DNA from: Sporomusa sp. KB1 | GTDB taxonomy: Bacteria; Bacillota; Negativicutes; Sporomusales; Sporomusaceae | Length of the DNA: 64,000 nucleotides | Direction of reading: 5' to 3' | NCBI RefSeq assembly: GCF_007830295.1 | Contig: NZ_VLKC01000001.1 | Coordinates: 205,773 to 269,772, forward strand | Part shown: positions 3,316 to 13,355 of the stretch, piece by piece | Layout: every line of letters starts with the position of its first letter | Numbering within the stretch: position 1 is the stretch's first letter | The notes under the pieces: generated by a model | The model's input: only the letters and a program-made list of their open reading frames with translations | Databases searched by the model: none | What the model was told of the DNA's origin: nothing | Position numbers and translations under genes: made by a program

Positions 3316-3631
3316 TCAAAAAGTTATTATAAGTTGTTTTAATTTCTCAGGTTACCGCTAGATAGGATAATTGGAGGTATAACCTATTTGTTAAGATTGT
3401 GTAAAGCTACCGTTAAGCTTTGGCAAAGCATCTTTCACCCGCCGCGCAAATTATGTTACTATCAAACCAAAAACTAGGAGTGGGCAACTATGAAGATACT
3501 TTGGCAAGCAATACTCACCTACTACACTACCTAACAGGAATTGCTAACCATTGCTCACCTCGTACCCGTATCATACTCTCTACTATTATTCGTAAATTTG
3601 GGCTATGAATTGTATTTTCGGAGGAATTATC
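3316..3631. other. Intergenic stretch without a supported gene
   Basis: Contains short open frames only. One of 62 codons at 3420-3608 begins with TTG and has no ribosome site. A 14-codon frame at 3490 (ATG after TAGGAGTG) has a good ribosome site but encodes only MKILWQAILTYYTT and could be a leader peptide. No family resemblance is seen. Confidence 0.4.
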
Positions 3632-5474: not shown

Positions 5475-5528
5475 TTAACAAAGACTTAACAGTAAATTAA
5501 CCAAAACTATCCAGCAGCTACTTATAAT
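5475..5528 (+). promoter_or_regulatory. Pho box and promoter of the alkaline phosphatase gene
   Basis: Three direct hexamers TTAACA (5475-5480), TTAACA (5486-5491) and TTAACC (5497-5502), each separated by 5 bases (11-bp period). A -10 TATAAT lies at 5523-5528, 20 bases after the last hexamer. This is the PhoP-binding arrangement known from Bacillus Pho promoters. The promoter at 8254-8307 has the same geometry. Confidence 0.85.
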
Positions 5529-5565
5529 GGACATGTACATAATCAAATTCAAAGGAGGTAACAAA

Positions 5566-7050
5566 ATGAACAGGAAAATCAAATGGTTTAGCTTGTCTGC
5601 TGTAATTATTGCTCTAATTGCTGTTATGCTTGTATCTGCTTTCCCGCAGCAGCAGACAGCTAGCGCCGGTGTCAGCAATGGGTACACCGGCAAGCAGGCC
5701 AAGTATGTATTCTTCTTTATTGGTGACGGCATGGGCATGCCGCAAATAAATGCTGCTGAAATTTTTAAAGGTACGCTCGAAAGCGATAATAAGATGCACA
5801 AAGGCAAGCTCGGTTTTACCGCATTCCCGCATCAGGGTATGCAGACCACGCATTCGAACAACACCTTTATCACCGAATCAGCAGCAGCCGGAACAGCTTT
5901 AGCTACCGGACAAAAAACCAACAACGACATTCTTGGCATGGATGCCACAAAAACTGTAAAGCTTAAAACCATGGCTGAACTGGCCAAAGAAAAGGGTATG
6001 AAGGTCGGCATTGTATCCAATGTATCCATTGACCATGCTACACCGGGCGCATTCTACGCCCATGAGCCTACCCGCAAGAACTATTATGAAATTGGCCTGG
6101 CACTGGCTAACAGTGGCTTCGATTATTTTGCCGGGGGTGGTCTATTAGCCCCTACCGGTCCCAAAAAAGATAAAACAAGTGTATTTGAGATTGCAAAAAA
6201 TAATGGCTATAAACTGGTTACTACGCAAGCAGAATTTAACAACCTGAGCAAACAGGACGGCAAGGTATTCGCCATTGCTCCAGAACTGGCTGCTGAAGCC
6301 GCAATGCCTTATGATATTGACCGCAATCCCAACCAAGTTACCTTGGCTGATTTTACCAAAAAAGGTATCGAGCTGTTGGACAACTCTCAGGGCTTCTTTA
6401 TGATGGTAGAAGGCGGCAAAATTGACTGGTCCTGTCATGCCAATGATGCGGCAACAACGGTTCGCGATGTACTTGCCTTTGATGACGCAATTAACGAGGC
6501 TCTCAAATTCTATGCCAAACATCCTAATGAAACGCTCATTATCGTGACTGGCGACCATGAAACCGGTGGTATGACAATTGGTTTTGCCGGTACAGACTAT
6601 GAAACCTTTTTCAGCAAAATCGATAAACAAGCCACTTCCTTTGAAGCCTTTGACAAAAAAATCAAAACCTATCGGGCAACCGTCGATGCACAGTATGCCA
6701 GCCTGAATGACTGGCTGCCTATTCTTGCGGACGAGTTCGGTTTGACTGATTTGACAGAATATGATAAAACCCGCCTGAGCGCTGCCTTGGCTGCCAGCAT
6801 GGTTGATCCGAAAAAGCGGGTCAAAGATCCCAACACTGCTTTGCTCTATGGTACCTATGAACCATTTAGTGTTACAATTACCCACATACTCAACCAAAAG
6901 GCCGGTATCGGCTGGACGACTTACGCCCATACCGGTGTAGCTATACCCGTATTTGCACAAGGCATTGGCGGCGAACTATTCCAGGGCTACTATGATAATA
7001 CCGATATCGCCAAAAAAACCATGAACATTATGGGTGTAAAACAACAATAA
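5566..7050 (+). CDS. phoA: Alkaline phosphatase, exported
   Basis: Hydrolyses phosphate monoesters outside the cytoplasm to release phosphate. The 494-residue product starts at ATG 5566 behind a perfect AAAGGAGG site. Its signal peptide (MNRKIKWFSLSAVIIALIAV and following to about residue 30) ends near TASAG. Core motifs are FFIGDGMGMPQ, the catalytic-serine segment TESAAAGTALATG, DHATPGAFYAH, the metal-binding GGKIDWSCHAND, TGDHETGGM and a C-terminal YAHTGVAIPVFAQG. Nothing essential looks missing. A Pho box precedes it, so expression should rise on phosphate starvation. A strong hairpin closes the unit. Confidence 0.95.
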   Translation: MNRKIKWFSLSAVIIALIAVMLVSAFPQQQTASAGVSNGYTGKQAKYVFFFIGDGMGMPQINAAEIFKGTLESDNKMHKGKLGFTAFPHQGMQTTHSNNTFITESAAAGTALATGQKTNNDILGMDATKTVKLKTMAELAKEKGMKVGIVSNVSIDHATPGAFYAHEPTRKNYYEIGLALANSGFDYFAGGGLLAPTGPKKDKTSVFEIAKNNGYKLVTTQAEFNNLSKQDGKVFAIAPELAAEAAMPYDIDRNPNQVTLADFTKKGIELLDNSQGFFMMVEGGKIDWSCHANDAATTVRDVLAFDDAINEALKFYAKHPNETLIIVTGDHETGGMTIGFAGTDYETFFSKIDKQATSFEAFDKKIKTYRATVDAQYASLNDWLPILADEFGLTDLTEYDKTRLSAALAASMVDPKKRVKDPNTALLYGTYEPFSVTITHILNQKAGIGWTTYAHTGVAIPVFAQGIGGELFQGYYDNTDIAKKTMNIMGVKQQ

Positions 7051-7067
7051 AAAAACTGCAGTAAACC

Positions 7068-7110
7068 TTTAGGCCAACCGGGCGGAGTATCCCCGCCCGG
7101 TTGGCCTAAA
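7068..7110. terminator. Perfect 18-bp hairpin after phoA
   Basis: Arms 7068-7085 and 7093-7110 (TTTAGGCCAACCGGGCGG and its exact complement), 7-base loop. No T run follows on the plus strand, so it may be a factor-assisted terminator or a 3'-end stabiliser. Confidence 0.65.
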
Positions 7111-7133
7111 CTAGGTAAGAAAGGATGCCTGTT

Positions 7134-8246
7134 ATGCCTTATTCCCGGAATACAGATAAACCCTTTGTGCTCGTTATCGCAATACTCTGTATCCTATTGT
7201 ATTTCCTGCCAACCGGGTTTCCGACACAAGACGACGATTATATTCGCAGTAAAGCCAGGGTAACTGCGGTCGATAACCAAGCCATACATCAGCGTGGCGT
7301 TGTCCAGACCGGAGTGCAAGCGGTAACCTTGCAGGTTGTGGGAGGTGAGTTTGCCGGTCAGGAAATCCAGGCCACCAATACACTGTTTGGAAAGCTGGAA
7401 TTGGACAAAGTGTTTCAGCCTGGTGATACCGCCTTAGTCGTTATCAAGGGACAAGACGGCCGGATTATCGCGGCTAATTTAATTGATCACTATCGGGTTG
7501 ATAAGGAAATGCTCCTGTTTGGTCTATTTATACTTGTGCTGTTTTGGTTTGCCCGCTGGACTGGCGTAAAAGCCGTACTTTCCTTTGTTTTTACCATCCT
7601 GGTTTTATGGAAGGTACTCTGGCCGCTGTTTCTGAAAGGCTGGGACCCCATTATTCTTTCATTACTAGTTATTTGTGTTATTGTCGGCTGTGTTACTTTT
7701 TTGGTAACAGGGCTTGGCCGTACCGGCTTAGTTTCTTTTCTGGGAACCATGTGCGGTGCAATTGCCGCTTGTTTGCTGGCTATTTTGTTTGGCCAACTAT
7801 TTAAAGTGCATGGCGCGGTTATTCCGTTTGCCGAAACCTTACTGCATGTTGGGTTTAGTCATCTTGATCTTACTAAAATTTTCCTAGCCGGGATCTTTGT
7901 GGCCTCTTCAGGAGCCATGATGGATGTTGCGGTTGATATTGCAGTAGCCGTTACTGAGCTTGTTGATAAAAATCCATCAATCACCCGCAAAGCGGCAGTT
8001 GCATCTGGCATGAATGTTGGCCGGGCAGTTGTCGGTACAATGACAACAACCTTATTACTGGCATACTCTGGTTCTTTTACCGCCCTTATGATGGTATTTA
8101 TGGCTCAGGGTACGCCGGTAATTAATATATTGAACCTGACCTATATCGCCGCAGAGATCCTCCATACCCTTGTTGGTAGTTTTGGTGTTGTACTTGTTGC
8201 ACCCTTTACAGCATGGCTGGCTGGATGGCTGCTGATTAGACAGTAA
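7134..8246 (+). CDS. YibE/F family multi-pass membrane protein
   Basis: A 370-residue integral membrane protein of the YibE/F family (transport role suspected, substrate unknown). It has an N-terminal transmembrane anchor (about 10-28), an extracytoplasmic beta-rich segment of roughly 100 residues, and then about seven transmembrane helices. The recognisable family core is GIFVASSGAMMDVAVDIA near residue 260, followed by SGMNVGRAVVGTMTTTLLLAY. ATG 7134 is chosen over ATG 7125 because AAGGA stands 8 bases before the former and overlaps the latter. It lies between two Pho-box genes but has no Pho box of its own visible. Confidence 0.85.
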   Translation: MPYSRNTDKPFVLVIAILCILLYFLPTGFPTQDDDYIRSKARVTAVDNQAIHQRGVVQTGVQAVTLQVVGGEFAGQEIQATNTLFGKLELDKVFQPGDTALVVIKGQDGRIIAANLIDHYRVDKEMLLFGLFILVLFWFARWTGVKAVLSFVFTILVLWKVLWPLFLKGWDPIILSLLVICVIVGCVTFLVTGLGRTGLVSFLGTMCGAIAACLLAILFGQLFKVHGAVIPFAETLLHVGFSHLDLTKIFLAGIFVASSGAMMDVAVDIAVAVTELVDKNPSITRKAAVASGMNVGRAVVGTMTTTLLLAYSGSFTALMMVFMAQGTPVINILNLTYIAAEILHTLVGSFGVVLVAPFTAWLAGWLLIRQ

Positions 8247-8253
8247 TGCACTT

Positions 8254-8307
8254 TTAACTAAACGATAACATACATTTAACAGCATCTCTCATTCAATTTG
8301 TTACAAT
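8254..8307 (+). promoter_or_regulatory. Second Pho box and promoter, upstream of glycosyltransferase and phospholipase C
   Basis: Hexamers TTAACT (8254-8259), ATAACA (8265-8270) and TTAACA (8276-8281) with 5-base gaps, then -10 TACAAT at 8302-8307. The distance from last hexamer to -10 is 20 bases, exactly as at the phoA promoter. Confidence 0.82.
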
Positions 8308-8345
8308 GCTTCTAGAGCCTTACTTTAATCTAAGGGGTGAGTGCT

Positions 8346-9473
8346 ATGAGTAAGAAAATATTGCTCGTGTCCGCTTCGATCGGTTCTGGTCATATCCAGG
8401 CAGCAAATGCTGTTCGGGATGAACTTAACCGTATCTCTCCGGCCACAAATGTCGCAGTCGTCGATTTTCTGGACCAGGAAATCTCCTTGGGGCATCTCAT
8501 TAAAGAAACCTATCTAAAAATGCTCGACGTTCTTCCCAATGCCTATGATTTTCTCTACCGCAAGTCCCAGAAATCTCAACCTGGTACTAGTGTAAAGAAT
8601 GTAACAGCACTTATTATGAAAAGGAAAATGGTAAAATTACTTTATGAGTATCACCCTGATATGTTAGTCTTTACGCATCCTTTTCCCTGCTGTGCCGCCG
8701 CTTACTTACGCCGTACCGGTCAGCTTTCCCTACCGATGGCTGCAGTCATGACTGACTTCTCCTTTCATCCTATGTGGCTGCACAAAGAAATTAATGCCTA
8801 TTTTGTGGCCAATAATGAAATTCAACATGCCCTTCATGACAATGGGATTGCAAAAGACCGGATTTTTATAACCGGCATCCCTATCTCTCCTAAATTTACC
8901 CAAACTCCCCCGAACAATCGTACGAAAGACAGGAGTCTCCCTGTCATACTGATTATGGGGGGCGGCCTTGGCTTGGGAGCAATCGAAGAGGCCGTTATTA
9001 GTCTGCAATCTACAAAAACACAAGTAAAAATCATTGTTGTCGCCGGAAATAATGCTAAGCTGAGAGACAGGTTGTTAACCCTAAGAAACACGTCCTGCAA
9101 CCCACTCACGGTCATGGGCTATACCGAGCGAATCAATGAGCTTATGGCAAATGCCTCGCTGCTTATTACTAAGCCTGGTGCTCTTACCTGCAGCGAAGCA
9201 CTAGCCCAGGAACTCCCGTTGCTACTACTTAGTCCCCTACCGGGACAAGAAGAGGATAACGCAAACTTCCTAACCCAGCAAGGAGTTGCCCTTCGTATTT
9301 CACCTGCTCGAACACTTGCCAGTCTAGTTGATGAGCTATTATCTAAGCCGCATATCCTAGATGATATGCGTTCAAAAGCCCACGACCTGAGCAAACCAGC
9401 CGCAGCGAACCACATTGCATTGTGTCTGTCTGCCAGCATACACAATCGTACTGCCATATTCCCTGCAAGCTAG
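8346..9473 (+). CDS. MGDG-synthase/UgtP-type diacylglycerol glycosyltransferase
   Basis: A GT28-type enzyme of 375 residues that should add sugar to diacylglycerol at the inner face of the cytoplasmic membrane. The N-terminal MGDG-synthase domain starts KKILLVSASIGSGHIQAANA and includes PNAYDFLYRKSQK. The C-terminal nucleotide-sugar half carries LIMGGGLGLG and SLLITKPGALTCSEALAQEL with PLPGQEEDNANFL, typical of UgtP/MurG relatives. ATG 8346 follows an AAGGGGTG site. The gene has its own Pho box and is followed after 36 bases by a phospholipase C gene. Together they fit phosphate-starvation lipid remodelling. The sugar and acceptor cannot be read from the sequence. Confidence 0.85.
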   Translation: MSKKILLVSASIGSGHIQAANAVRDELNRISPATNVAVVDFLDQEISLGHLIKETYLKMLDVLPNAYDFLYRKSQKSQPGTSVKNVTALIMKRKMVKLLYEYHPDMLVFTHPFPCCAAAYLRRTGQLSLPMAAVMTDFSFHPMWLHKEINAYFVANNEIQHALHDNGIAKDRIFITGIPISPKFTQTPPNNRTKDRSLPVILIMGGGLGLGAIEEAVISLQSTKTQVKIIVVAGNNAKLRDRLLTLRNTSCNPLTVMGYTERINELMANASLLITKPGALTCSEALAQELPLLLLSPLPGQEEDNANFLTQQGVALRISPARTLASLVDELLSKPHILDDMRSKAHDLSKPAAANHIALCLSASIHNRTAIFPAS

Positions 9474-9509
9474 TGTCTCTTTAGGAAAAAAGTATCTAAG
9501 GAGAGAGTT

Positions 9510-10214
9510 ATGATTACTACATTAAAAACTGTACCTACAGATGCTTGCCTTCACTTTATGCTAGCGGTAGTATCCCCCTTTCAAGGTTTCTTGGATAAAC
9601 CAGGGCTAACCCATGAATTTTGCAACCAGCAAGCCCTTGCTATCATCAAGAACGATGGCCTCTGGCAATGTTCGAACTTTCTATCAAACTACATTGTCGA
9701 ACTTAACTTAGGTGTGTACTGGGCGGATAAGGACTGGAAGAACGTCCACCACTATTTTGAACCTTGTTCAGGCAAAGGATTATGGCACTCCACACATGCT
9801 ATCGAAAACTTTGAATTATATTATCAGTTGGCACTCTGTTCGGCAAAAAAGTATGACTTAAAAAAAGCCACATTTTTCTTAGGCGCCTCCGCCCATATAC
9901 TCCAGGATTTATGTGTCCCTCACCACGCAAGAGCAAAGCTGTTTAATGGTCACAAGCAATATGAAGGCTGGGTGCAGGCGAATTATGATAAGTACGCTGT
10001 ACTAACTGAGGGGTTATACTGCCAGGGACTTGAGTCTCTCATCACCAATAATGCCTGTGTCGCTGCCGAATTTTTTGATTGGGTCCGCTGCGAAGATGAT
10101 ATAGTCCATTACGACAAGGCGACAGAAGTTCTTCTTCCTCTGGCCCAGCGTACGACTGCAGGCTTATTTCACGCTTTTACCACAGAAATACATGACTTTT
10201 GGCAATTCGCATGA
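9510..10214 (+). CDS. Zinc-dependent phospholipase C family protein, no signal peptide
   Basis: A 234-residue protein of the zinc phospholipase C (Bacillus cereus PLC) superfamily, which cleaves phospholipid head groups to give diacylglycerol. Candidate zinc ligands appear in family order: THEF near residue 31, GLWHSTHAIENFE near 90, SAHILQDLCVPHH near 128 (the H-x3-D-x5-H pattern) and GHKQYEGW near 150 (H-x3-E). Unlike secreted toxins it has no signal peptide, so it should act inside the cell. It follows the glycosyltransferase gene by 36 bases with its own AAGGAGAG site and shares its Pho-box promoter. Family confidence is high; the native lipid substrate is inferred from context. Confidence 0.82.
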   Translation: MITTLKTVPTDACLHFMLAVVSPFQGFLDKPGLTHEFCNQQALAIIKNDGLWQCSNFLSNYIVELNLGVYWADKDWKNVHHYFEPCSGKGLWHSTHAIENFELYYQLALCSAKKYDLKKATFFLGASAHILQDLCVPHHARAKLFNGHKQYEGWVQANYDKYAVLTEGLYCQGLESLITNNACVAAEFFDWVRCEDDIVHYDKATEVLLPLAQRTTAGLFHAFTTEIHDFWQFA

Positions 10215-10631: not shown

Positions 10632-11492
10632 ATGCAGACATGGATACAGATAGTATTTAGTTCAGTTTCATTATTTTTTGCGCTACTGCTCTTGATCAGG
10701 CTGCTGGGAAAAAGAAATATCGCTCGCATGACACCCTTTAGATTCGTAAGCTATATCGTAGCAGCAGTAATTGCCGCATTACTATCCCTAAATTTAATTG
10801 CCAATCCCGCCTTCGGATTTATTGCTCTTGGTGTTTGGGTACTATTTCCAGTAGCATTGGATTATCTGTCCCTAAAAAGCAAATGGGTTCATGACATTGT
10901 TAATGGCAAGGAAACTGTACTAATTAAGCATGGAAAAATCATGGAAGAGAATCTTCTGCAAACAAGGCTGACAGGTGAGGAATTGCTGCGAGAGCTCCGC
11001 TTTAAAAATGCCTTTACTCTAGCTGATGTAGAATTTGCAGTAATGGAAGATACCGGAGATATAAATGTTTTTTTGAAATCTGACAAAACACCAGTATCCG
11101 CCCACGATTTAGGGATAAAAGTGGCTCCCCTGGCAGAACCGCAGACAGTTATACTTGATGGCAACATTATCAGTGAACCTCTGGCTTCTTTGGGATTTAA
11201 CACCGAATGGCTAGGTATTCAGTTAGAAACCAGCGGAGTATCGCTAGATAATGTGTTTATCGGGCAGGTAGACTCGTCTGGTGATTTATACCTAGATCTG
11301 TTTGACGACTCTGTACAATTACCACAGCCAAAGGTTAAGGAAATGCTATATGCAAACTTCGAAAAAGTCCAGGCTGATCTCACGACCTTTGCGCTAGAGA
11401 CAAAAAATGAAGCAGCTAAGCAAATGTATTCAACGCATGCAGCAGCGTTACAACAACTTTTGGAAAAGCTTAGGCCATATTTATTGCGTTAG
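10632..11492 (+). CDS. DUF421 (YetF-type) membrane protein with DUF1657-like C terminus
   Basis: A 286-residue protein. Three transmembrane helices occupy the first 85 residues (FFALLLLIRLLGKRNIARMT, then two more). A soluble DUF421 region follows (about 90-160, with GKIMEENLLQTRLTGEELL). The last about 45 residues (FEKVQADLTTFALETKNEAA) resemble the DUF1657 proteins at both ends of the operon. YetF-like proteins with this DUF421+DUF1657 layout are known from spoVA2mob operons, where they contribute to spore heat resistance. It lies 15 bases after the first DUF1657 gene and 13 before spoVAC, so the genes are surely co-transcribed. The biochemical role is unknown. Confidence 0.85.
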   Translation: MQTWIQIVFSSVSLFFALLLLIRLLGKRNIARMTPFRFVSYIVAAVIAALLSLNLIANPAFGFIALGVWVLFPVALDYLSLKSKWVHDIVNGKETVLIKHGKIMEENLLQTRLTGEELLRELRFKNAFTLADVEFAVMEDTGDINVFLKSDKTPVSAHDLGIKVAPLAEPQTVILDGNIISEPLASLGFNTEWLGIQLETSGVSLDNVFIGQVDSSGDLYLDLFDDSVQLPQPKVKEMLYANFEKVQADLTTFALETKNEAAKQMYSTHAAALQQLLEKLRPYLLR

Positions 11493-11505
11493 AAGGTGAA
11501 TTGCA

Positions 11506-11985
11506 TTGTCAAGCAGTAAACGCAAAAATCTAACCCCTGTACAGCAGCAATACCAGGACTTTGCCCGCGCAAGGGAACCGCAGCGTCCACTCGTAATTAA
11601 CTGTATCCGCGCCTTTATTGTAGGCGGCATTATCTGTACAATAGGTCAGGGAATACAGTTGTTTTTCAGTACCTATTTTAACTTTGACGAGAAGACAGCA
11701 GGCGATCCCACTGTTGCGATTCTGATTTTGATTTCAGTAATTCTTACAAGCCTTGGATTATATGATCATATTGCCCAATGGGGCGGTGCTGGCAGTGCCG
11801 TTCCGGTTACAGGGTTTGCCAATACAATTACCTCAGCTTCTCTTGACCACAAAAGTGAGGGGTTTGTATTAGGCGTCGGCGGAAATATGTTTAAAATCGC
11901 CGGACCAGTTATTGTATTTGGTGTCTTTTCCGCTTTTATTGTTGCGATTGTAAAAGTAATCATTACGTCGTTAGGTGGAATGTAA
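11506..11985 (+). CDS. spoVAC: SpoVAC, spore inner-membrane channel component
   Basis: A 159-residue membrane protein of the SpoVAC family, part of the channel that moves Ca-dipicolinate into and out of the spore. Hydrophobic helices cover about residues 30-50, 65-85 and 125-150. Family motifs are IVGGIICTIGQ, SLGLYDHIAQWGGAGSAVPVTGFAN and SEGFVLGVGGNMFKIAGPVI. It starts at TTG 11506 with an AAGGTG site. Its stop is followed immediately by the spoVAD ATG at 11986, indicating translational coupling. A SpoVAC/SpoVAE resemblance is visible in the GGAGS(A)VP(V/I)S/TxF(A/G)N motif, as expected. Confidence 0.95.
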   Translation: MSSSKRKNLTPVQQQYQDFARAREPQRPLVINCIRAFIVGGIICTIGQGIQLFFSTYFNFDEKTAGDPTVAILILISVILTSLGLYDHIAQWGGAGSAVPVTGFANTITSASLDHKSEGFVLGVGGNMFKIAGPVIVFGVFSAFIVAIVKVIITSLGGM

Positions 11986-12987
11986 ATGCTGCAGGGTCAT
12001 CAAACATGGGTTTTCAAATCAAAACCAACCATTATTGGTTCTGCTGCAATCGGCGGACCATTTGAAGCACAGGGTAATCTGGCAGACGATTTTGACCTGC
12101 TTCATGGTGATATTTGGCTTGGGCAGGACAGTTACGAACAAGCAGAAAAAAAATTTTTGGAACAAGCTTGTGAAACTGCAATTAAAAAAGCGGGACTAAA
12201 AAAAGAGGACGTCCAGTTCTTTCTCAGTGGTGATTTAATTAACCAGATTATGCCCAGCAGCTTTACCGCCCGTACCCTTGCCGTTCCTTATTTAGGTATC
12301 TATGGAGCTTGCTCTAGTTCCATGGAAGGCCTTTCCTTAGCCTCGCTGATCATCGATAGTGGGTTCGCACAGAATGCCCTTGTTGGTACATCCAGCCATA
12401 ACGCCGCCTCTGAGAAACAATACCGATATCCTACCGAGTACGGCGCACAGAAGCCTCCTACAGCCCAATGGACTGTTACAGGGGCAGGGGCGGCAGTTGT
12501 TGCCAAACAAGGAACAGGTCCACGGGTTGCAGCGTCTACGATTGGCCGGGTAGTCGACATGGGACTTTCCGACCCGTTTAATATGGGAGCAGCCATGGCT
12601 CCGGCTGCCGTTGACACCATTGAAGCTCACTTCAGGGATTTGAACATTTGCCCAACATACTATGACCTCATTACGACTGGCGACTTAGGCAAAGTAGGCC
12701 ACCGTATTGCCGGAGATTTGCTTACAAAGCATGGACTTAGCATCCCTGTAGAAAAGTTGACCGACTGCGGTATTTTAATGTACAAGGAAGATCAGCCAGT
12801 TTTCGCAGGCGCCAGTGGCTGCGCCTGCGTTGCTACAACTACCTTTGGGCATCTTTTAAATCGCATGCGCCGCGGGGAGCTGAACCGGATTCTGGTTATA
12901 GCCACAGGCGCTTTGCTCTCCCCCATGTCGTACCAGCAAAAAGAAACCATACCGTGTGTGGCCCACGCAGTAGCAATAGAAATGTAA
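11986..12987 (+). CDS. spoVAD: SpoVAD, thiolase-fold dipicolinate-binding protein
   Basis: A 333-residue soluble protein of the SpoVAD family. Members have a thiolase/ketoacyl-synthase fold and bind dipicolinic acid at the spore inner membrane. Motifs visible are WLGQDSYEQAEKKFLEQA, GIYGACSSSMEGL (around the position of the thiolase cysteine), GTSSHNAASEKQYRYP and GASGCACVATTTFGHLL. It is the usual length. The start abuts the spoVAC stop, and the stop overlaps the region before spoVAE by only about 14 bases. Base composition resembles its neighbours, so no recent transfer is evident here. Confidence 0.95.
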   Translation: MLQGHQTWVFKSKPTIIGSAAIGGPFEAQGNLADDFDLLHGDIWLGQDSYEQAEKKFLEQACETAIKKAGLKKEDVQFFLSGDLINQIMPSSFTARTLAVPYLGIYGACSSSMEGLSLASLIIDSGFAQNALVGTSSHNAASEKQYRYPTEYGAQKPPTAQWTVTGAGAAVVAKQGTGPRVAASTIGRVVDMGLSDPFNMGAAMAPAAVDTIEAHFRDLNICPTYYDLITTGDLGKVGHRIAGDLLTKHGLSIPVEKLTDCGILMYKEDQPVFAGASGCACVATTTFGHLLNRMRRGELNRILVIATGALLSPMSYQQKETIPCVAHAVAIEM

Positions 12988-13001
12988 AACGGGAGGCTTA
13001 T

Positions 13002-13355
13002 GTGGAAAAGTTTGTTTTGGCGTTTATCGTTGGCGGAACGATATGTGTAATTGGACAACTCCTTATGGATGGACTGAAACTAACGCCTGCACATACAATG
13101 GTTGCTTTAGTAGTGTCTGGCGCTGTTTTAGGCGGCTTTGGCCTATATGACGATTTAATTAAATTTGCCGGTGCAGGAGCTTCTGTTCCTATCAGCAGCT
13201 TTGGCAATCAATTGGTAAAGGGTGCCCTCCAGGAAGCAGAAAAAACCGGCCTTGTCGGCGTATTGACAGGTATTTTTAAAATCACCAGTGCCGGCATTTC
13301 AGCGGCAATTATTTTTGGATTTTTGGCGTCTTTACTATGTAAACCGAAAGGATAA
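13002..13355 (+). CDS. spoVAE: SpoVAE (SpoVAEb type), spore inner-membrane channel component
   Basis: A 117-residue multi-helix membrane protein. It starts at GTG 13002, with GGGAGG 5-6 bases upstream; an in-frame start at 12954 inside spoVAD lacks a ribosome site. Motifs are FIVGGTICVIGQLL at the N terminus, GGFGLYDDLIKFAGAGASVP and ISSFGNQLVKGA, parallel to those of SpoVAC. With SpoVAC and SpoVAD it completes the minimum set for dipicolinate transport. spoVAA, spoVAB and spoVAF are absent, which is the spoVA2mob rather than the canonical operon pattern. Confidence 0.93.
   Translation: MEKFVLAFIVGGTICVIGQLLMDGLKLTPAHTMVALVVSGAVLGGFGLYDDLIKFAGAGASVPISSFGNQLVKGALQEAEKTGLVGVLTGIFKITSAGISAAIIFGFLASLLCKPKG

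Follow-up and report, generated by a model that had tools for sequence, protein, structure and literature searches.

The window considered here is a stretch of 64,000 nucleotides from Sporomusa sp. KB1 (contig NZ_VLKC01000001.1, positions 205,773 to 269,772), in which two adjacent genes, one for a glycosyltransferase of the monogalactosyldiacylglycerol (MGDG) synthase type and one for a zinc-dependent phospholipase C, stand behind a promoter of the Pho type, as does phoA, the alkaline phosphatase gene, a short distance upstream. The pair is probably a unit for remodelling the membrane during phosphate starvation, putting glycolipid in the place of phospholipid. The features on which this reading rests are the following:

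5475..5502, + strand: Pho-box-like triple TTAACA/TTAACA/TTAACC, 11-bp period, 5' of phoA (read from the sequence; 1 mismatch in the genome composite scan)
5523..5528, + strand: -10 box TATAAT of the phoA promoter, exactly 20 bases after the third hexamer (read from the sequence; composite scan)
8254..8281, + strand: Pho-box-like triple TTAACT/ATAACA/TTAACA, 11-bp period, 5' of the glycosyltransferase-phospholipase pair (read from the sequence; 2 mismatches in the composite scan; also in relatives)
8302..8307, + strand: -10 box TACAAT of the pair promoter, exactly 20 bases after the third hexamer (read from the sequence; composite scan)
8346..9473, + strand: MGDG-synthase/UgtP-like glycosyltransferase (GT1), predicted to act on diacylglycerol (PF06925, E 4.7e-32; PF04101, E 3.2e-14; PDB 9wde, 4wyi)
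9510..10214, + strand: zinc-dependent phospholipase C of 234 amino acids, with no signal-peptide-like stretch, predicted to be cytosolic (PF00882)

At low phosphate, a PhoP- or PhoB-like regulator would bind the TTAACA repeats and turn on the phospholipase and the glycosyltransferase, along with pst, phoA and phosphonate uptake. The intracellular phospholipase would remove the head-group phosphate of membrane phospholipids, which could then be recycled, and leave diacylglycerol, to which the glycosyltransferase would add a sugar. The resulting phosphate-free glycolipid would fill the place of the phospholipid in the membrane.

PhoP-box promoters have at least three TTAACA-like hexamers with an 11-bp period, 5' of the -10 box. 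The preliminary description of this DNA claimed two such promoters, and both are present at 5475-5528 and 8254-8307: in each, the three hexamers follow one another every 11 bp, and the -10 box comes exactly 20 bases after the last of them. The hexamer triple alone was rejected as evidence: it is weak, since the 6.06-Mb genome contains 32 matches with up to 3 mismatches, as compared to 22 matches of the reversed pattern. The composite motif (the triple plus a -10 box at 20 bases) has 10 matches, and its control has none. Ranked by mismatches, pstS comes first with 0 and phoA next with 1, followed with 2 each by the phnD operon, the glycosyltransferase-phospholipase pair and an open reading frame of 40 amino acids, and with 3 by pstB, pstC and three other places. 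Ten matches against none, with pstS, phoA and phnD included, make the composite motif the mark of this genome's Pho regulon, of which the pair is amongst the best-ranked members. The earlier assignment of the boxes to the Pho type is thereby borne out, the motif preceding pstS, pstC, pstB and the phnD operon as well. The best model for the response regulator of the pst cluster is PhoB, at 267.3 bits (under the curated cut-off of 296.2), and the best models for the kinase are WalK, PnpS and PhoR, each also under its curated cut-off.

The phospholipase scores 47.1 bits against PF00882 (gathering cut-off 26.8), the only Pfam family found in it apart from a sub-threshold match to JTB (E up to 0.1). 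Its predicted structure has the fold and zinc ligands of Bacillus cereus phospholipase C, as in the secreted enzymes, and the eight residues that I take to be the side-chain zinc ligands (H35, D73, H81, H129, D133, H139, H148 and E152) are all conserved in 80 of 81 homologues. No signal-peptide-like stretch was found in the window enzyme by a hydrophobicity rule with PhoA, PstS and PhnD as controls, nor a strong hydrophobic leader in any of the 81 homologues. The rule is a simple one and not a trained predictor: any 12-mer containing K, R, D, E, H, N or Q is skipped, and for the PstS controls the score was taken over residues 1-80 of the open reading frame. To this extent the enzyme is what it had been called, a B. 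cereus-type phospholipase C without a signal peptide. Conservation extends to its N-terminal segment: 70 of the 81 homologues have P23, and 73 have Q25. The model aligns from residue 29 with chain residue 4 of the secreted B. cereus enzyme, so that residues 1-28 precede it, and a helix is predicted, at low confidence, at 9-27. The N terminus might conceivably be cleaved after synthesis. Two further matches to PF00882 above the cut-off occur in the same genome, in open reading frames of 315 and 176 amino acids (G000:C1:4268463-4268999 and C1:2333930-2334316).

The best matches of the glycosyltransferase among PDB sequences are 9wde, a processive diacylglycerol beta-glucosyltransferase (E 1.6e-45), and 4wyi, a plant MGDG synthase (E 7.6e-29). 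Pfam finds PF06925, PF04101, a sub-threshold match to Epimerase_2 and nothing else. The genome holds two further members of the family at E up to 1e-20.

The pairing recurs in relatives. In the set of the 60 nearest genomes, with the genome of the window counted, 38 have the phospholipase, and at least 31 of these have the glycosyltransferase directly 5' of it (26 of 30 fetched loci, with G046, G049, G031, G030 and G028 added by coordinates). A glycosyltransferase directly upstream was not found in G001, G002, G012 and G048 nor, among the matches listed, in G036, G053 and G038. Amongst named genomes the closest phospholipase is that of Sporomusa silvacetica DSM 10669 (94%), though records of the genome of the window itself, or of very close relatives, may have been absent from that comparison. 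In the sample of the phylum, 44 of 398 genomes have matches to the phospholipase. Gene order was compared in the best 80 of 130 named relatives, 81 loci with the window, related genomes being taken as separate: 25 have the order of the window (glycosyltransferase then phospholipase), 5 have the reverse order, and 51 have no adjacent co-directed glycosyltransferase. The phylum sample adds 29 new loci, with a glycosyltransferase directly upstream in L097, downstream in L078, L089 and L095, and divergent in L100; the remaining loci have none within the short locus, and triples are few.

In a tree of 45 glycosyltransferases, built by a quick method, 7 of the 8 reverse-order partners fall in a clade of their own (support 99), apart from the partners that precede the phospholipase, and those from Desulfosporosinus lie among unlinked paralogues of that genus. 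L165, the eighth, groups with the Pelosinus-type partners (support 89, on a long branch), which counts against a simple picture of two clades; the placement of three rows with long branches (L097, L165 and L089) is uncertain. The separate clade therefore suggests that the pairing arose two or more times, unless losses and swaps mimic separate origins. In the pst cluster of the window's own genome (L061:12548-15543), a CYTH/CHAD protein and an MGDG-synthase-like glycosyltransferase, GT2, occur with no phospholipase and no box at GT2. In Sporomusa malonica the order is glycosyltransferase, phospholipase, CYTH/CHAD protein and then pst on the other strand. Since GT2 is the sister of the S. malonica pst-linked partner (support 100) and its own site lacks a phospholipase, the phospholipase of the pst cluster seems to have been lost in the lineage of the window, whose pair at the present locus would be a different one. 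Lucifera butyrica has two phospholipase copies (L117 and L122), of which one has a glycosyltransferase next to it and the other has none; no box was found at threshold for either copy.

The boxes were sought in relatives with steps of 10-12 bp and a -10 box at 20 or 21, in regions 200 bases up and 150 down. Strict 11-bp spacing had proved too narrow (a triple in 13 of the 25 loci in window order, 11 with a -10 box at 20, over 250 bases up and 120 down), and the wider steps were allowed because several loci have steps of 10 or 12 bp; the rule was thus loosened after the sequences had been seen, and the shuffles were repeated under the identical rule. Among the 25 loci a triple is found in 17 and a triple with a -10 box in 16 (the window and 15 of 24 others), as compared to means of 0.12 and 0 in 40 shuffles. 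The means were 0.1 and 0 for the reverse-order set and 0.2 and 0 for the others. The distance from the last hexamer to the -10 box in the window-order set peaks at 20 (11 loci), with 21 in 3 loci. A pair with Pho boxes had been proposed as something to look for in other members of the family, and it does recur. A further run of TTAACA-like hexamers lies between pstA and the phospholipase in Desulfovirgula (L150:5456-5505), outside the stretch scanned.

The phospholipase or the pair also has pst/pho neighbours in 25 of the 80 named loci, found with Pho proteins of the window's genome as queries. I counted linkage by pstS, pstC, pstA, phoU, phoR or phoA, leaving out loci with only pstB or only phoP (in this search generic ABC and generic regulator matches) and L137, whose kinase has 31% identity. 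Linkage occurs in 15 of the 24 named loci in window order, 1 of 5 in reverse order and 9 of the 51 others. By my own rough estimate, a 12-kb locus would meet such genes by chance about 1 time in 80. Examples are Anaerospora hongkongensis (phoR, glycosyltransferase, phospholipase, pstS, pstC, pstA), Desulfofundulus (pstS-pstC-pstA, then phospholipase) and Desulfosporosinus lacus (phospholipase, glycosyltransferase, phoP-like, pstS, pstC, pstA, pstB).

Several results weigh against the pair as a remodelling unit. The phospholipase is a minority gene, present in 46 of the 252 genomes of the class sample. The glycosyltransferase has matches in all 60 of the nearest genomes, 22 without the phospholipase included (at E up to 0.001, where the weakest may be of MurG type), with several paralogues in most, and its presence alone therefore proves nothing and was discarded as evidence of coupling. 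It scores 250.6 bits against the UgtP equivalog PRK13609 of NCBIfam, about half of the cut-off of 500. No box at threshold was found in 8 of the 25 window-order loci (L109, L117 and six of Pelosinus type; one of these six, L148, is on a contig that begins inside the glycosyltransferase and cannot show a box). Reverse-order loci have a triple in 3 of 5 and a placed -10 box in 0 of 5, and loci without an adjacent co-directed glycosyltransferase in 9 and 3 of 51, respectively. The phospholipase of Sporomusa ovata DSM 2662 (L106:5983-6585) has lost D73 and H81 in an in-frame gap of 40 residues, and is decayed, repurposed or an assembly error. Finally, no counterpart was found in the window model to the free N-terminal Trp that presumably serves as a zinc ligand in the B. 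cereus enzyme.

It is also conceivable, if unlikely, that the phospholipase merely harvests phosphate from the cell's own phospholipids, the diacylglycerol re-entering phospholipid synthesis while the product of the glycosyltransferase is a lipid anchor or some minor glycolipid unconnected with it. The 51 of 81 loci that lack an adjacent co-directed glycosyltransferase (some on short contigs), 9 of them beside pst or phoA, fit such a role, as do L103 and L104, where a Pho promoter directly 5' of the phospholipase serves no glycosyltransferase. Rebuilding phospholipid would, however, consume phosphate again, and harvesting alone does not account for the recurrent adjacency or for the recruitment of MGDG-synthase-type glycosyltransferases from separate lineages.

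Still less probable is that the enzyme cleaves some other phosphodiester (nucleic acid or cyclic dinucleotide) in the manner of S1/P1 nuclease and recycles that phosphate; S1/P1 nuclease is only the second-best fold match, and that identity was rejected. I give hardly any credence to non-classical export, by which the enzyme would digest external phospholipids as do the secreted B. cereus enzyme and PhoA. Secreted enzymes do have this fold and zinc site, and a secreted phosphatase is encoded nearby, but the absence of a signal-peptide-like stretch speaks against a secreted phospholipase, and the conserved P23 and Q25 are unlike a cleaved leader.

A broader proposal seems to me slightly more likely than not: that anaerobic Bacillota (Negativicutes, relatives of Desulfotomaculum, and Desulfosporosinus) have a route of remodelling independent of PlcP. 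It would use a branch of the B. cereus-fold zinc phospholipases that stays inside the cell and has a helix where the secreted enzymes have their N-terminal zinc ligand. This branch would be recurrent in the phosphate regulon and coupled at least twice, in opposite orders, to MGDG-synthase-type glycosyltransferases. Proteobacteria and Bacillota would in that case have put remodelling together separately, out of enzymes that are not related.

Two other genes lie in the region:

5566..7050, + strand: phoA, alkaline phosphatase, with a signal-peptide-like N terminus (PF00245, E 4e-73; hydrophobic stretch 3.42)
7125..8246, + strand: YibE/F-like membrane protein, a neighbour whose membership in the Pho unit is unproven (PF07907, E 1.9e-75)

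The preliminary description had treated 5475-10214 as one block linked to phoA. Pho-type promoters do stand before both units, and that part holds. phoA, on the other hand, is only an occasional neighbour, found in 3 of the 80 named loci (L103, L106 and L156) and not at the S. silvacetica locus L102; the pst/phoR cluster is the steadier one. A strong inverted repeat without a T run (7069-7109), between phoA and yibE/F, may stop transcription of phoA or may be a stem. Given this repeat, the promoter of the pair's own and the rare linkage to phoA, a single operon from phoA to the phospholipase was rejected as not shown, and the region is a neighbourhood of two Pho-type promoters. Downstream (10632-13355) come a YetF-type DUF421/DUF1657 protein and several further open reading frames, which I take to resemble the spore-channel genes SpoVAC/AD/AE.

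Another Pho-like triple lies at 3389-3416 (- strand) of the window, between two genes of the + strand and with no obvious target; a similar one occurs in S. silvacetica (L102, at 2771). The 40-amino-acid reading frame in the motif set (G000:C1:649064-649255, - strand; L063:3562-3756) has its Pho-type promoter (2 mismatches) directly 5' and contains one hydrophobic stretch. It is a candidate for a phosphate-controlled microprotein, with identities of 98%, 98% and 90% in three other genomes of the genus, the upstream repeats being present in both 98% relatives.

Membrane lipids that lack phosphate are common in anoxic waters (PMC5193443). The known genetic handles, plcP and agt, would miss an unrelated pair of PF00882 and MGDG-synthase type, and carriers could therefore be scored as incapable of remodelling. 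If the reading given here is true, the pair is a second, convergent solution to the problem of a phosphate-free membrane, gives a testable intracellular role to a fold known chiefly from phospholipases that are secreted, and offers genes that may serve as markers of phosphate stress in anaerobic metagenomes. Among the open-licence literature matches listed, none describes a PF00882-type phospholipase in remodelling under phosphate starvation nor, as had been supposed, the pairing in Negativicutes, a weak absence, since subscription journals fall largely outside; those of the papers listed that were screened for TTAACA did not contain it.

The closest known system is PlcP-Agt, in which a phospholipase C and a diacylglycerol glycosyltransferase share a Pho-box unit (PMC4796936, PMC8528852), as in Sinorhizobium, Agrobacterium, Phaeobacter, SAR11 and Pseudomonas aeruginosa. 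PlcP is a metallophosphoesterase (PMC9239053) and Agt a GT4 glycosyltransferase (PMC8231724), and the boxes are CTGTCAT repeats (PMC8528852), whereas the Sporomusa enzymes are of PF00882 and PF06925/GT28 type behind TTAACA repeats. Since Pfam finds no metallophosphoesterase domain in the phospholipase and no GT4 domain in the glycosyltransferase, the pair is not a member of PlcP-Agt, in agreement with the earlier suggestion of an enzyme non-homologous to PlcP. D. alaskensis makes glycolipids at low phosphate by way of an Agt homologue, as described in a paper in whose main text the word phospholipase does not appear (PMC5193443).

The promoters resemble those of Bacillus subtilis, where I take PhoP boxes to be TTAACA-like direct repeats about 11 bp apart ahead of the -10 box; the Sporomusa promoters, putative sites by this likeness, have three repeats with the -10 box exactly 20 bases on. 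The glycosyltransferase shares PF06925, PF04101 and its best structural matches (9wde, 4wyi) with UgtP, the processive diacylglycerol glucosyltransferase, and with plant MGDG synthase, while reaching only half of the curated UgtP cut-off; I know of no Pho control of B. subtilis ugtP, nor of a link from it to a phospholipase. The phospholipase shares its fold and zinc site with the phosphatidylcholine-preferring phospholipase C of B. cereus (1ah7) and related secreted zinc enzymes. It differs from them in having no signal-peptide-like stretch, in an N terminus about 21 residues longer ahead of the first ligand His and without the N-terminal Trp ligand (by the numbering and role that I assume for the B. 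cereus enzyme), in its Pho-type promoter, and in its pairing with a glycosyltransferase.

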